Positions 36,919 to 40,874 of a stretch of DNA of 64,000 bases are shown here, one piece after another. Below the pieces are notes generated by a model. That model saw only the letters and a program-made list of their open reading frames with translations. It did not search any database and was not told the origin of the DNA. Within the stretch, counting starts at the first letter, position 1. Every line of letters starts with the position of its first letter. Made by a program: the position numbers and the translations under genes. Location: the NCBI RefSeq assembly GCF_001544615.1, contig NZ_FCNV02000007.1, positions 62,001-126,000 on the forward strand, read 5' to 3'. The stretch comes from Caballeronia concitans (lineage in GTDB: Bacteria; Pseudomonadota; Gammaproteobacteria; Burkholderiales; Burkholderiaceae).

Positions 36919-37021
36919 TGAGAGGTCTCCGGAATTGAAGTGGTCGGCTTCGACCGAGCAAGCCGATGTCACAGGAGCGATGCTTGCTCGATCGACGTAT
37001 GGCGACTCAAGGAGCAAACTC

Positions 37022-37381
37022 GTGACCACCCATCACACGCATGGACAATCGACGGACGAAGACGACAAGGCCGCGTTCGAAGAATTCAAGTCGCTCGTGA
37101 ACATGACGGCGCATCAACTGGAAAAGTGGCTTGCCACGGAAGCATCCCGCGCAGTTGGCCAAAAGGACGGCGATGCGGAGTCTGTCGGACACAAGTCGGG
37201 ACGACGGATTATCGAACTGCTGGGCGCGAAGAAAAGCGACTTGCAATCCGATGACTACGCCCACATGCGCAAGGTAACCGGCTATGTGAAGCGCCATCTC
37301 GCGCAGCGCCCGCACGGCGATATCGAACATACGAAGTGGCGGTATTCGCTGATGAACTGGGGACATGATCCGTTGAAATGA
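37022..37381 (+). CDS. DUF3140 family protein
   Basis: A 119-residue cytoplasmic protein that matches DUF3140 over nearly all its length: FKSLVNMTAHQLEKWLATEAS, then ESVGHKSGRRIIELLG, then DYAHMRKVTGYVKRHLAQRP and the end WRYSLMNWGHDPLK. The GTG at 37022 is the likely start because AAGGAGCAAACTC stands directly before it; the preceding in-frame ATG at 36935 lacks a ribosome site. The family is widespread and possibly DNA-binding, but its function is unknown. It lies 67 bases upstream of the SOS-box operon in the same direction. Confidence 0.85.
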   Translation: MTTHHTHGQSTDEDDKAAFEEFKSLVNMTAHQLEKWLATEASRAVGQKDGDAESVGHKSGRRIIELLGAKKSDLQSDDYAHMRKVTGYVKRHLAQRPHGDIEHTKWRYSLMNWGHDPLK

Positions 37382-37416: not shown

Positions 37417-37438
37417 ATACTGTATAAACATACAGTAT
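37417..37438. promoter_or_regulatory. LexA (SOS) box upstream of the radical SAM/UdgX operon
   Basis: The core CTGTATAAACATACAG (37420-37435) fits the proteobacterial LexA consensus CTG-N10-CAG with the AT-rich centre. Including flanks the two arms ATACTGTAT (37417-37425) and ATACAGTAT (37430-37438) are perfect inverted copies around AAAC. It ends 10 bases before the ATG at 37449, where bound LexA would block transcription. This is the clearest regulatory site in the window and implies DNA-damage induction. Confidence 0.87.
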
Positions 37439-37448
37439 CATAGGCAAG

Positions 37449-38660
37449 ATGGAACTGTCCGAAAAGCTCGAAATTCTTGCGGATGCCGCGAAGTACGACG
37501 CCTCGTGCGCCAGCGGCGGCGCGTCAAAACGCGAGTCGCGCGGCGTGGAAGGCCTCGGCGCGAGCACGGGCTCGGGCATCTGTCACAGCTTCACGCCGGA
37601 CGGCCGCTGCGTGTCGCTGCTGAAGATTCTGCTGACCAACTTTTGCCTGTACGACTGCCGCTATTGCATCAATCGCCGGTCGAGCAACGTGCCTCGCGCG
37701 CGGTTCACGCCGGAGGAAGTCGTCACGTTGACGGTGGACTTTTATCGCCGCAACTACATCGACGGCCTGTTTCTCAGTTCGGGCGTCATCCGCTCGTCGA
37801 ATTACACGATGGAGCAACTCGTGCTCGTCGCGAAGACGCTGCGCGAAAAGCATCAGTTTCGCGGCTATATCCATCTGAAGACCATTCCCGACGCCGATTC
37901 CGAACTCATCGCGCAGGCCGGGCGGTATGCGGACCGGCTGAGCGTGAACATCGAGTTGCCGACCGAAATCAGCCTCGAACGGCTCGCGCCCGAAAAGAGC
38001 GGGCGCACGATCAAGCTCGCGATGGGCAACATTCGCGTCGCGCGCGAAGAGTCCGAAGCCGAGCCGCGCGCGCCGCGTTTCGCGCCGGCCGGGCAGAGCA
38101 CGCAGATGATCGTCGGCGCGGACGAAACGGACGACCGCACCATCCTCGGCACCGCCGAAACGCTGTACGGCTCGTATCAACTAAAGCGCGTGTATTACTC
38201 CGCGTTCAGCCCGATTCCCGATAGCCCGAGCGGCGTGCCGTCGAAAGCGCCGCCGCTGTTGCGGGAGCATCGGCTGTATCAGGCTGATTTCTTGATGCGC
38301 GGGTACGGTTTCAATGCCGCCGAATTGCTCGGCGATGCCGGCAATCTGCCGCTCGATGTCGATCCGAAACTCGCATGGGCGCTCGCGCATCGCGAGCGCT
38401 TTCCCGTCGATCTGAACGCTGCACCCGCGCGCATGATCGCGCGCGTGCCGGGCATCGGCATGCGCAACGCGAAGCGCATCGTGGAATTGCGGCGCACGCG
38501 TCGCGTGCGTTATGCCGATCTCGCGCGGCTGCGTTGCGGCATGGAAAAGGTGAAGCCGTTCGTCGTGACGGAAGATTATCGGCCGCCGCTTTCGGAGGCG
38601 TCGTCGGAGAACTTGCGACGGGCGCTGGCCACGCAGCCCGTGCAGCTTTCGCTGCTTTAG
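37449..38660 (+). CDS. Radical SAM protein linked to DNA repair (UDG-linked rSAM)
   Basis: A 403-residue radical SAM enzyme. The iron-sulfur motif is CLYDCRYC (Cys66, Cys70, Cys73; C-x3-C-x2-C), in a typical TNFCLYDCRYCINR context. The C-terminal part has a helix-hairpin-helix DNA-binding element (APARMIARVPGIGMRNAKRIVELRR, about residues 337-361; shown here for its position). The family is annotated as a putative DNA modification/repair radical SAM protein always found with a uracil-DNA glycosylase family gene, exactly as here, 7 bases apart. Its reaction is unknown. A LexA box just upstream indicates SOS control. Expected substrate: a damaged or modified base. Confidence 0.9.
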   Translation: MELSEKLEILADAAKYDASCASGGASKRESRGVEGLGASTGSGICHSFTPDGRCVSLLKILLTNFCLYDCRYCINRRSSNVPRARFTPEEVVTLTVDFYRRNYIDGLFLSSGVIRSSNYTMEQLVLVAKTLREKHQFRGYIHLKTIPDADSELIAQAGRYADRLSVNIELPTEISLERLAPEKSGRTIKLAMGNIRVAREESEAEPRAPRFAPAGQSTQMIVGADETDDRTILGTAETLYGSYQLKRVYYSAFSPIPDSPSGVPSKAPPLLREHRLYQADFLMRGYGFNAAELLGDAGNLPLDVDPKLAWALAHRERFPVDLNAAPARMIARVPGIGMRNAKRIVELRRTRRVRYADLARLRCGMEKVKPFVVTEDYRPPLSEASSENLRRALATQPVQLSLL

Positions 38661-38667
38661 CTTCGCC

Positions 38668-40089
38668 ATGCGCGCGATCATCATCGACGACGATTTCGAT
38701 GCCTGGCGCAGCGCCGCGCTCGATGCGTTGTCGCAAGGGCTCGCGCCCGAATCCATCGACTGGCGCACGCGGCAAAGCGAGGCCCCGGCGCTTTTCGAAG
38801 CCAGCGCTGATGTCGCCACGCCGCGCACCGATGCGCCACAAGTCCGCGTTTCCCGCGACCTCGCCGCGTTGCTGAAAGACGCCGCGCATTTTCGCGACGT
38901 GCACCGCTGGGGCTTTCTCTATCGCGTGTTGTGGCGATGGACGCATGGCGACCGCTCCGTCGCGTCTCCCGCCGATGAGGACGGCGCGCGTCTCTACAAG
39001 ATGGCGAAGGCGGTGCGGCGCGCGCAGCACGACATGATCGCCTACGTGCGCTTCCGTCAGCGCGATGCATCGCTCGGGCCGCCCGAATATGTCGCGTGGT
39101 ACGAGCCGGATCACGACGTGCTCGCGTGGGGCGCGGAGCATTTCGCGGCGCGCATGGGCCGCTCGACGTGGCTCATCACCACGCCCGACGGCGCGGCCAT
39201 GTGGAACGGCGAGCGTCTGGAGATCGAGCGGCGGCGCGCTCATGCATCGGACCATGGATCCGATACGCCCGACGCCGCCGAAGACCTCTGGATGACGTAC
39301 TACCGCAGCATCTTCAATCCGGCACGTCTGAACGAATCCGCGCTCGAACAGCACATGCCGGTGCGTTTCTGGAAGGGCCTGCCCGAAGGCGCTTTGATCC
39401 CGCAAATGCTGAGCGATGCCCGCGGCGGCGCGCGGCGGGTCGCGCAGGCGAGAACGGTCGGCGCGCTCGGCGGCAAGACGGTGCAGGTCGACGCGGAAGA
39501 CGCACAGCCGGAACGCGACGCGCCCACATCGCTCGATACATGCCGCCGCTGCGATCTATGGCGCAACGCGACGCAAGCGGTCCACGGCGCGGGGCCGTCG
39601 GATGCGCGCATCATGCTGCTCGGCGAGCAGCCCGGCGATCAGGAAGACCTGAAGGGCGAGCCGTTCGTCGGCCCGGCCGGACAGTTACTCGACGACGCCA
39701 TGCGGCGCGCGGGCGTGCCGCGCGAACAGGTCTATCTGACCAACGCGGTGAAGCATTTCAAATGGGAGCCGCGCGGCAAGCGGCGTCTGCACAAGACGCC
39801 CGCGCAGCAGGAAGTCGAAGCGTGCTCGTACTGGCTCGAACGCGAACTCGACGATACCGCCGCGCGCGTCATCGTCACGCTCGGCGCGACGGCGCTCACC
39901 GCGCTGCTCGGCAAGCGCGCGACCTTGCGCGAGCACGTCGGGCGCGTGGTGCCGTTCGGCGACAAGCTGATCGTCGCGACGTATCACCCGTCGTATGCGC
40001 TGAGGCAAATGGACGAGACCGCGCGCGCAAAGACCGTCGCCGATATCACCGATGCGCTCGCGAAGGCGCATCGGCTGAGCGCGACTTAA
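38668..40089 (+). CDS. udgX: DUF4130-UdgX fusion, uracil-DNA binding protein
   Basis: A 473-residue two-domain protein. Residues about 1-250 are the DUF4130/SAM-linked domain (WGFLYRVLWRW, YKMAKAVRRAQHDMIAYVRF, MTYYRSIFNPARLN). Residues about 285-473 are a UdgX-type uracil-DNA glycosylase with GEQPGDQED (319-327), PFVGPAGQLLD, KRRLH (371-375) and HPS at 440-442. UdgX proteins bind uracil-DNA covalently through the histidine of a KRRIH loop; here the loop is KRRLH with His375 intact. Iron-sulfur ligands are likely Cys292, Cys295, Cys386 and His363. Translated 7 bases after the radical SAM gene, under the same LexA box. Confidence 0.92.
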   Translation: MRAIIIDDDFDAWRSAALDALSQGLAPESIDWRTRQSEAPALFEASADVATPRTDAPQVRVSRDLAALLKDAAHFRDVHRWGFLYRVLWRWTHGDRSVASPADEDGARLYKMAKAVRRAQHDMIAYVRFRQRDASLGPPEYVAWYEPDHDVLAWGAEHFAARMGRSTWLITTPDGAAMWNGERLEIERRRAHASDHGSDTPDAAEDLWMTYYRSIFNPARLNESALEQHMPVRFWKGLPEGALIPQMLSDARGGARRVAQARTVGALGGKTVQVDAEDAQPERDAPTSLDTCRRCDLWRNATQAVHGAGPSDARIMLLGEQPGDQEDLKGEPFVGPAGQLLDDAMRRAGVPREQVYLTNAVKHFKWEPRGKRRLHKTPAQQEVEACSYWLERELDDTAARVIVTLGATALTALLGKRATLREHVGRVVPFGDKLIVATYHPSYALRQMDETARAKTVADITDALAKAHRLSAT

Positions 40090-40874
40090 AACGCCGCGCG
40101 CACCACGCCGCCATCCGCGCGCAACGCCGCGCCGTTCGTCGCCGACGACAACTCCGAGCACACATACACGACCATGTTCGCGATCTCCTCGGGCAGGATG
40201 AAGCGCTTGAGCAGCGAACTTGGCCGCGCCTCGGCGAAGAACGACTTCTCCGCTTCCTCGAAACTCTTGCCGCCCGAGAGCTTGTCGACGAACTCGGTGA
40301 CGCCTTCCGAGCGCGTCGGCCCCGGCAGCACCGCGTTGACCGTCACGCCGGTGCCGGCGCACGTTTCCGCGAGACCGCGCGAGAGCGACAGTTGCGCGGT
40401 TTTCGTGAGGCCGTAGTGAATCATCTCGACCGGAATCTGGATGCCGCTCTCGCTGCTGATGAACACCACGCGGCCCCAGTTCTTCGCCTTCATTTTCGGC
40501 AGATACGCGCGCGACAGCCGCACGCCCGACATCACGTTGGCATTGAAAAAACGCAGCCAGTCGTCGTCGGAAATCTCTTCGAAGGGCTTCGGCTCGAAGA
40601 TGCCCATGTTGTTCACGAGAATATCGACGTCCGGAAAGCGCTGCACGAGCGCGTCGACTTGCGCGGCGTCGGAGACATCGCCCGCGAAGCCTTCGGCCTG
40701 CGCGTTCGGCACGAGCTGGCGCAGCTTGTCGAGGGCGGCATCGACGGACGATTGCGAACGACCGTTGACGATCACGCGCGCGCCTTCACGCGCGAGCGCC
40801 ACCGCGATGGCGTGACCGATTCCCTTCGTCGATCCGGAAACGAACGCGAGCTTGTTGGCGATTTTCAGGTCCAT
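40086..40874 (-). CDS. SDR-family NAD(P)-dependent oxidoreductase
   Basis: A 262-residue short-chain dehydrogenase. The cofactor motif is SGSTKGIG (residues 13-20), then NNMG (88-91), and the catalytic Ser141, Tyr154 and Lys158 (IHYGLTK). The Thr-Lys in the glycine motif and Arg39 in NGRS suggest NADP preference. The C-terminal loop EEAEKSFFAEARPSSLLKRFILPEEIANMV is typical of beta-ketoacyl reductase-like SDRs of unknown substrate. Its stop overlaps the UdgX stop by four bases in convergent orientation. It is probably monocistronic. Confidence 0.88.
   Translation of the reverse strand: MDLKIANKLAFVSGSTKGIGHAIAVALAREGARVIVNGRSQSSVDAALDKLRQLVPNAQAEGFAGDVSDAAQVDALVQRFPDVDILVNNMGIFEPKPFEEISDDDWLRFFNANVMSGVRLSRAYLPKMKAKNWGRVVFISSESGIQIPVEMIHYGLTKTAQLSLSRGLAETCAGTGVTVNAVLPGPTRSEGVTEFVDKLSGGKSFEEAEKSFFAEARPSSLLKRFILPEEIANMVVYVCSELSSATNGAALRADGGVVRAAF

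Follow-up and report, generated by a model that had tools for sequence, protein, structure and literature searches.

The stretch of DNA analysed here, referred to below as the window, comprises 64,000 nucleotides of Caballeronia concitans (contig NZ_FCNV02000007.1, positions 62,001 to 126,000), and the subject of this analysis is an operon of two genes within it. The first encodes a radical S-adenosylmethionine (SAM) protein with a C-terminal helix-hairpin-helix (HHH), the second a fusion of DUF4130 with a UdgX domain, and both lie behind a LexA box (Table 1). An initial annotation, made from the sequence alone, had placed the fusion gene 7 bases after the radical SAM gene, and family models and coordinates agree with it, the 7 nt being counted from the radical SAM stop codon to the DUF4130-UdgX start. 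The same annotation had described a near-perfect LexA box 10 bases before the first gene; it is in fact a perfect palindrome. When the sequence is read, its 9-base arms are ATACTGTAT (37417-37425) and ATACAGTAT (37430-37438) with AAAC between them, and the 20-base palindrome at 37418-37437 lies 11 bases 5' of the radical SAM ATG (37449), which become 10 when counted from the end of the 9-base arm. In the whole window, TACTGTATAAACATACAGTA is the sole match at up to 3 mismatches, compared with a mean of 0.01 in shuffled sequences.

The LexA-type motif was found at 15 sites in the whole genome at up to 3 mismatches, versus 3 for a reversed control pattern. Besides two DUF4130-UdgX-related sites, candidate genes were scanned at 12 of the 13 others, usually one gene per site. 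In detail, the genes behind these sites include lexA, recA, dinB (DNA polymerase IV), three imuA genes and a DinG/Rad3-like helicase gene, and likewise a PA0069-type radical SAM gene and a gene with a SLATT domain. Because the same motif precedes lexA, recA and other SOS genes of this organism, it is the organism's own LexA operator type. At three sites (L260, L263 and L270; here and below, L, G and f numbers are our labels for loci, genomes and families) no family was found for the scanned gene, and the lexA site is flanked on its other side by a sulfate-transporter gene.

A search for LexA boxes before this gene pair in other genomes had been proposed along with the claim that the operon is SOS-controlled, and its outcome, together with the perfect box and the same motif at lexA and recA, lends strong comparative support to that claim. 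In 77 of 80 named relatives, the best site before the gene scored at least 13/16, the peak of the control (100 shuffles per locus) being 13/16; in L036 and L044 it scored 12 and in L026 11. In all 54 loci from the other classes of the phylum, which span 30 genera and 9 families, an exact GTTC-N7-GTTC repeat or its complement is present at most 100 nt upstream; CTGT-N8-ACAG was found in none of the 54. Of the 36 loci that belong to the class of the window, 27 have a CTG-N10-CAG box, and the GTTC-N7-GTTC repeat occurs at none of the 36. The remainder of the loci, taken as background, contains 5 GTTC-N7-GTTC repeats and 6 CTGT-N8-ACAG sites in 391,968 bases. GTTC-N7-GTTC is given as the alphaproteobacterial LexA repeat in passages of PMC8565304. 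Judged from the sequences, the type of box shifts with the clade and its placement before the radical SAM gene is constant, and the operon is very probably under the control of LexA.

For the question which of the proteins belong together, 398 genomes of the phylum were searched by family profiles with curated cut-offs. The radical SAM family was found above its cut-off in 84 genomes, DUF4130 in 87 and UdgX in 78. DUF4130 is present in 84 of the 84 radical SAM genomes and UdgX above the cut-off in 63 of them (in G736 it lies below), and the radical SAM gene is absent from 15 of the 78 UdgX-bearing genomes. For the linkage counts, 90 sampled loci were used, 84 from the phylum sample and 6 present only in a class sample of 369, in addition to the 80 named loci; the two sets overlap in that three radical SAM proteins are identical. 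In every one of the 90 sampled and 80 named loci, DUF4130 is encoded 3' of the radical SAM gene and in the same direction. For 88 of the 90 the gap between the two is below 680 nt; in G579 and G591 it amounts to 2.8-3.0 kb and contains other genes. Among the sampled loci, UdgX is part of a fusion in 65 and absent from 23, it is split in G506, and in G545 a contig end truncates it; in the named loci it is fused in 72, split in 2 and absent from 6. Twenty of the 23 UdgX-less loci belong to genomes in which the genome-wide search gave no UdgX above the cut-off either; G256, G258 and G352, which are UdgX-less as well, lie outside the sample of that search. On a quick tree of 93 representatives, in which the branch of G431 is long and unsure, the UdgX state changes at least 11 times, and 4 of the changes are forced by well-supported branches. 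Four distant loci (L274-L277, one from Acinetobacter and three from gut scaffolds) also have DUF4130 and no UdgX, and in the control genome Bacteroides ihuae the radical SAM and DUF4130 families were matched and UdgX was not. For the Bacteroidetes operon, however, passages of PMC8565304 list a uracil-glycosylase COG. In another control genome, that of Caulobacter vibrioides, all three families were matched. Because DUF4130 always follows the radical SAM gene, and because UdgX is absent from 23 of 90 loci and has changed its state at least 11 times, the radical SAM protein and DUF4130 most likely form the core of the system and UdgX an accessory part. Two relatives from IMG/VR were left out of these counts, namely L273, which ends within the radical SAM gene, and L272, where a hemerythrin gene comes next and the contig ends 18 residues into a DUF4130-like start that is too short for the profile.

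The boxes themselves follow the same division. Of the 23 UdgX-less loci, 19 are boxed, the exceptions being G256, G352, G431 and G709. A box of the type of the clade was also found 32-216 nt before the domain in five of five DUF4130 genes that have no radical SAM neighbour, that is, in two second copies and in the genes of G551, G567 and G636 (L246-L248). In these three genomes tblastn gave no trace of a radical SAM gene, and DUF4130 is retained with its direct-repeat box. In a sixth locus (G428) the box precedes a DUF4130 remnant fused to UdgX. No LexA box was found before any of the 17 stand-alone UdgX genes, which are all those above the cut-off in the sample, and five of these box-less genes (in G000, G402, G603, G615 and G671) share their genome with a boxed linked copy. 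Because boxes precede five of five DUF4130 genes without a radical SAM partner and 0 of 17 stand-alone UdgX genes, SOS control appears to be tied to DUF4130. The simplest reading is that it would belong to the radical SAM-DUF4130 pair, with UdgX brought under it by fusion.

Table 1. Features of the operon and its neighbours (positions in the window).
Feature	Position	Strand	Remarks
LexA box TACTGTATAAACATACAGTA	37418..37437		16/16 to TACTGTAT-N4-ATACAGTA; arms extend to 37417 and 37438
Radical SAM protein, TIGR03916 rSAM_link_UDG, 403 aa	37449..38660	+	552 bits, cut-off 343.5; PF04055
Three invariant N-terminal Cys (C20, C45, C54) and H46	37506..37610	+	176/176 aligned relatives
Radical SAM cluster motif CX3CX2C (C66, C70, C73)	37644..37667	+	176/176
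C-terminal helix-hairpin-helix, residues 320-350	38406..38498	+	HHH_3
DUF4130-UdgX fusion, 473 aa	38668..40089	+	starts 7 nt after radical SAM stop codon
TIGR03915 / DUF4130 domain	38680..39387	+	212 bits, cut-off 112
UdgX domain (TIGR03914)	39481..40062	+	247 bits, cut-off 190; PDB UdgX E 2e-48
UdgX motif A GEQPG	39622..39636	+	sequence and alignment
UdgX R-loop KRRLH with predicted cross-linking His (residue 375)	39778..39792	+	aligns with M. smegmatis KRRIH
UdgX motif B HPSYALR	39985..40005	+	alignment
DUF3140 gene, upstream neighbour	36935-37381	+	not repair-related by family
Short-chain dehydrogenase gene, convergent downstream neighbour	40086-40874	-	not repair-related by family

In the radical SAM protein, PF04055 spans residues 61-200 above its cut-off. 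The HHH_3 match reaches 26.1 bits (E 9.5e-6), which is 0.9 bits under the Pfam cut-off of 27, and the HHH was matched in 50 of 50 members of the radical SAM alignment at E<=1. This alignment contains 176 sequences, of which 173 are distinct, and C20, C45, C54, C66, C70 and C73 as well as H46 are kept in all of them, distant ones included. Several radical SAM enzymes that modify bases hold a second metal centre, and since C20, C45 and C54 are invariant besides the SAM cluster cysteines C66/C70/C73, the pattern suggests a second metal cluster in this protein too. A profile search against solved structures gave weak fragments only, mainly of the HHH and the cluster motif, and PHROGs has no family for the protein. 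One further lead, no more than that, is offered by the archaeal TYW1/Taw1 proteins, base modifiers of the two-cluster radical SAM type, which have three cysteines just upstream of CX3CX2C in common with the protein of the window. The two differ in cysteine spacing, and the window's protein has an HHH instead of the Wyosine_form domain that TYW1/Taw1-type radical SAM enzymes carry; the listed Pfam matches of this protein and of its aligned relatives do not include Wyosine_form.

In the fusion protein, PF13566 (DUF4130) covers residues 80-240 with 122 bits against a cut-off of 27. Thirteen columns of this domain are invariant in 76 sequences, including H121, R128, R162, W208, Y211, R220, W235 and E240, and the solved-structure profile search found no credible relative for it (one match, E 0.75). 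The UdgX part of the window has GEQPG, KRRLH, HPSYALR and the iron-sulfur (Fe-S) cysteines intact. It thereby shares the GEQPG, KRRxH and HPS motifs and the Fe-S cysteines with the UdgX of M. smegmatis, with an E value of 2e-48 to solved structures, but differs from it in being fused behind DUF4130, SOS-boxed and placed beside a radical SAM gene. Over the same part, a DNA polymerase profile was the sole PHROGs match for the fusion. The cross-linking histidine is present in 139 of 140 linked UdgX domains, G736 being the exception; the underlying alignment has 141 rows, as the locus of the window appears in it twice. Some linked UdgX domains have no cysteine at the first Fe-S pair (eight rows with a gap or SE), and five rows have SHYRWW at the third Fe-S cysteine; in such domains the cluster may have been lost, or the sequence may be cut or misaligned.

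The genome of the window additionally has a second DUF4130-UdgX gene (G000:C14:30554-32071; L249, L292), which has no radical SAM neighbour. A perfect box precedes this gene by 30 nt, and genes whose products have molybdopterin-binding and MobA-like domains lie upstream of it; the copy of G671 is found in the same setting. A search of the genus gave some match in 40 of 41 genomes and a second copy at >=76% identity in 25, the window's genome included, while G763 and G771 contain second-copy fragments or copies with stops. Each of the 25 second copies (L292-L316) is preceded by a box that matches at 15 or 16 of the 16 positions. Within the KRR loop, Glu stands in place of the first Arg in every copy, while the histidine is lost in 7 and kept in 18, with motif A GEQPG unchanged. 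In passages of PMC10359453, His mutants of UdgX no longer cross-link and have acquired conventional glycosylase activity to a variable extent, and a change in this direction would be predicted for a His-less copy. This genus paralogue with its degraded R-loop represents a natural control for the purpose of cross-linking. The paralogue of G671, in spite of having no radical SAM partner, retains QRRVH. A third, stand-alone UdgX (G000:C14:146803-147372; L250) has no LexA box.

From these data we derive the following model. LexA bound at 37418-37437 would silence the operon, and RecA-triggered cleavage of LexA would induce it together with recA, lexA, dinB and the imuA genes. The radical SAM protein and DUF4130 would then jointly process a damaged or modified DNA base, whereby the radical SAM protein would dock on DNA via its C-terminal HHH and perform radical chemistry with its SAM-binding cluster, probably aided by a second metal centre (C20, C45, C54). 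DUF4130 may be a partner for substrate positioning or for a second step, as its tight linkage and the shared control indicate. UdgX would be an optional fused module which excises uracil and, by capping the abasic site covalently, shields it for the duration of the SOS period; this role is proposed because its motifs are intact and by analogy with the UdgX of M. smegmatis. The claims on SOS control and on the core rest on counts, whereas the chemistry is what we infer. We give an even chance to the model as a whole, that is, an SOS-regulated operon with a lesion-processing radical SAM-DUF4130 core and UdgX as an accessory cap. That DNA is the substrate of the radical SAM protein is somewhat more probable, and the specific division of labour among radical SAM protein, DUF4130 and UdgX is tentative and less likely than not. 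If the pair repairs a specific lesion, it would constitute a new arm of the SOS response. As the uracil part seems to be optional, further study would best start from the radical SAM protein with DUF4130 and from the additional cysteines. At its most far-reaching, and then rather doubtful, the model would describe a new SOS-induced repair chemistry, in which a two-cluster radical SAM enzyme acts with DUF4130 on a damaged base, with this core present in several phyla and a detachable UdgX capping the abasic sites that are produced or met; the duplicate in the genus would have left its radical SAM partner and kept the LexA box, losing the cross-linking loop and becoming a different enzyme.

Several observations weigh against this model. 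By consensus search, no sigma-70-like promoter was found upstream of the operon. Nine of the 36 loci of the same class (G171, G256, G274, G352, G354, G431, G651, G709 and G742) have no upstream site that qualifies as a box, although in G354 a 12/16 box lies at 57 nt and thus slightly beyond the distance limit. Among the 17 stand-alone UdgX genes, those of G633 (f15) and of G367 and G563 (f182) say little, as they come from families without a demonstrated box type. The proposal of DNA rather than a protein as the substrate leans on the HHH, which scores just below the Pfam cut-off in the window's protein. Because DUF4130 persists without a radical SAM gene in three sampled genomes and in the second copies, it presumably has some role of its own. 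Finally, UdgX is retained at most loci with its histidine in 139 of 140 domains, which argues that it matters where it is present.

Three of the box-less loci of the same class (G274, G651 and G742; L083, L203 and L207, all of family f15) have an inverted repeat around TCTCATCCAATGAGA directly before the radical SAM gene. This repeat is possibly another operator or a terminator.

Among the alternatives to a joint action of the radical SAM protein and DUF4130 on a damaged base, direct reversal of a lesion, in which a dimer or a base adduct would be reverted as by spore photoproduct lyase, fares best and is still improbable. PA0069-type proteins are kin of SplB, and spore photoproduct lyase has a conserved cysteine downstream of the cluster motif that serves as H donor. 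The radical SAM cluster motif and the SOS membership are common to this group (COG1533) and the window's protein, the PA0069-type gene of this genome being LexA-boxed as well, and the HHH would suit such a reaction. The window's protein, however, has no match to this family, TIGR03916 alone being matched in the NCBIfam scan at E 0.001. In addition, none of its cysteines after C73 is invariant in the 176 sequences and could act as H-atom donor (the most frequent one, at position 363, occurs in 102 of the 176), and its profile aligned with one PA0069-type protein of the genome in 14 columns around the cluster motif, a comparison with a single sequence and therefore a weak one. Passages of PMC8565304 count SplB among the SOS-regulated genes of several species.

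The initial annotation had proposed that UdgX captures a lesion which the radical SAM enzyme then alters or releases. In this scheme UdgX would form a covalent trap for uracil or abasic sites, with the UdgX-DNA adduct being resolved or altered by the radical SAM enzyme. The frequent fusion of UdgX (65/90 sampled and 72/80 named loci), its nearly invariant cross-linking histidine and the altered loop of the genus paralogues, which have no radical SAM gene beside them, are all consistent with such a scheme. As a general function it is nevertheless disfavoured by the same counts which separate core and accessory parts: 23 of 90 loci hold radical SAM and DUF4130 without UdgX, the UdgX state has changed at least 11 times, 15 of 78 UdgX genomes have no radical SAM gene, and 0 of 17 stand-alone UdgX genes are boxed. 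The G671 paralogue with its QRRVH also speaks against it, and for UdgX-DNA complexes a resolution by RecA-dependent pathways or proteases is proposed in passages of PMC10359453. We therefore consider capture and release unlikely, although it may apply at those loci where UdgX is present, given the histidine retained in 139 of 140 linked domains. A similarly low probability is assigned to the possibility that the radical SAM protein is a maturase that modifies DUF4130, or the fusion, post-translationally, with DUF4130 being the part that acts on DNA. The tight linkage of the two genes, the invariant polar residues of DUF4130 itself and its SOS-boxed persistence where the radical SAM gene is absent are consistent with a maturase; this same persistence (3 of 87 genomes and the conserved paralogues) means, however, that the modification could not be essential there, and the HHH suggests nucleic acid. 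A function in DNA modification or phage defence instead of repair, for which one could cite the NCBIfam family name 'DNA modification/repair' and a relative on 158 plasmid records (mostly non-mobilizable), is very improbable in view of the LexA-type boxes throughout the phylum sample, the lack of a PADLOC model for either protein and of a PHROG for the radical SAM protein, and the chromosomal appearance of the record annotated as 'phage'.

Carriage by phages finds no support in the four phage records inspected, besides which the phage collection gave six further hits. The record in question, CAKLQH020000003.1 (L274, 'Acinetobacter phage MD-2021a'), has the genes glyS and glyQ next to the operon and resembles a bacterial chromosome, and the three gut records are unverified scaffolds without annotation.

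The pairing of the genes and their SOS control are already known, and the operon is of a known kind. It passes all three cut-offs of the TIGR03916/TIGR03915/TIGR03914 set (COG4277-COG1573) in the same linked order and shows no difference in kind from it, the second SOS-boxed DUF4130-UdgX gene being an addition of the window's genome. The linkage has already been catalogued in the NCBIfam names rSAM_link_UDG, SAM_7_link_chp and UDG_fam_dom. In passages of PMC8565304 the COG1573-COG4277 operon appears in inferred SOS networks of Bacteroidetes and is described as a uracil-glycosylase-based repair system, whose SOS control is cited for Verrucomicrobia and Alphaproteobacteria. Parts of PMC3765255 connect DUF4130 with uracil glycosylases and with radical SAM proteins labelled SplB-like, and parts of PMC10359453 describe the chemistry of UdgX and propose that it protects abasic sites. 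The division into core and accessory parts, the pattern of invariant cysteines and the paralogue of the genus were not found in the main texts of open-licence papers, and among open-licence papers none was found that names both 'UdgX' and 'radical SAM'.

The region of the operon has 3 terminator-like sites against 2.7 expected, and one of them is a weak stem-loop ahead of the second gene (38642-38655). The short-chain dehydrogenase gene shares four bases with the end of the UdgX gene. In some relatives, other genes are placed between the radical SAM gene and DUF4130: hemerythrin in G386 (L199) and L272, a cytidine/dCMP-type deaminase in G741 (L202), and beta-helix proteins in G579 (L201) and G591 (L205). 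No common partner was seen among the intervening genes, which were scanned in four of the five loci (G386, G741, G579 and G591). Elsewhere in the genome of the window, each of the three imuA genes has its own LexA-type box (L257, L261 and L262), and the gene with the SLATT_4 domain, a two-transmembrane effector type (L264:1529-2116), begins 8 nt behind a 14/16 LexA box.

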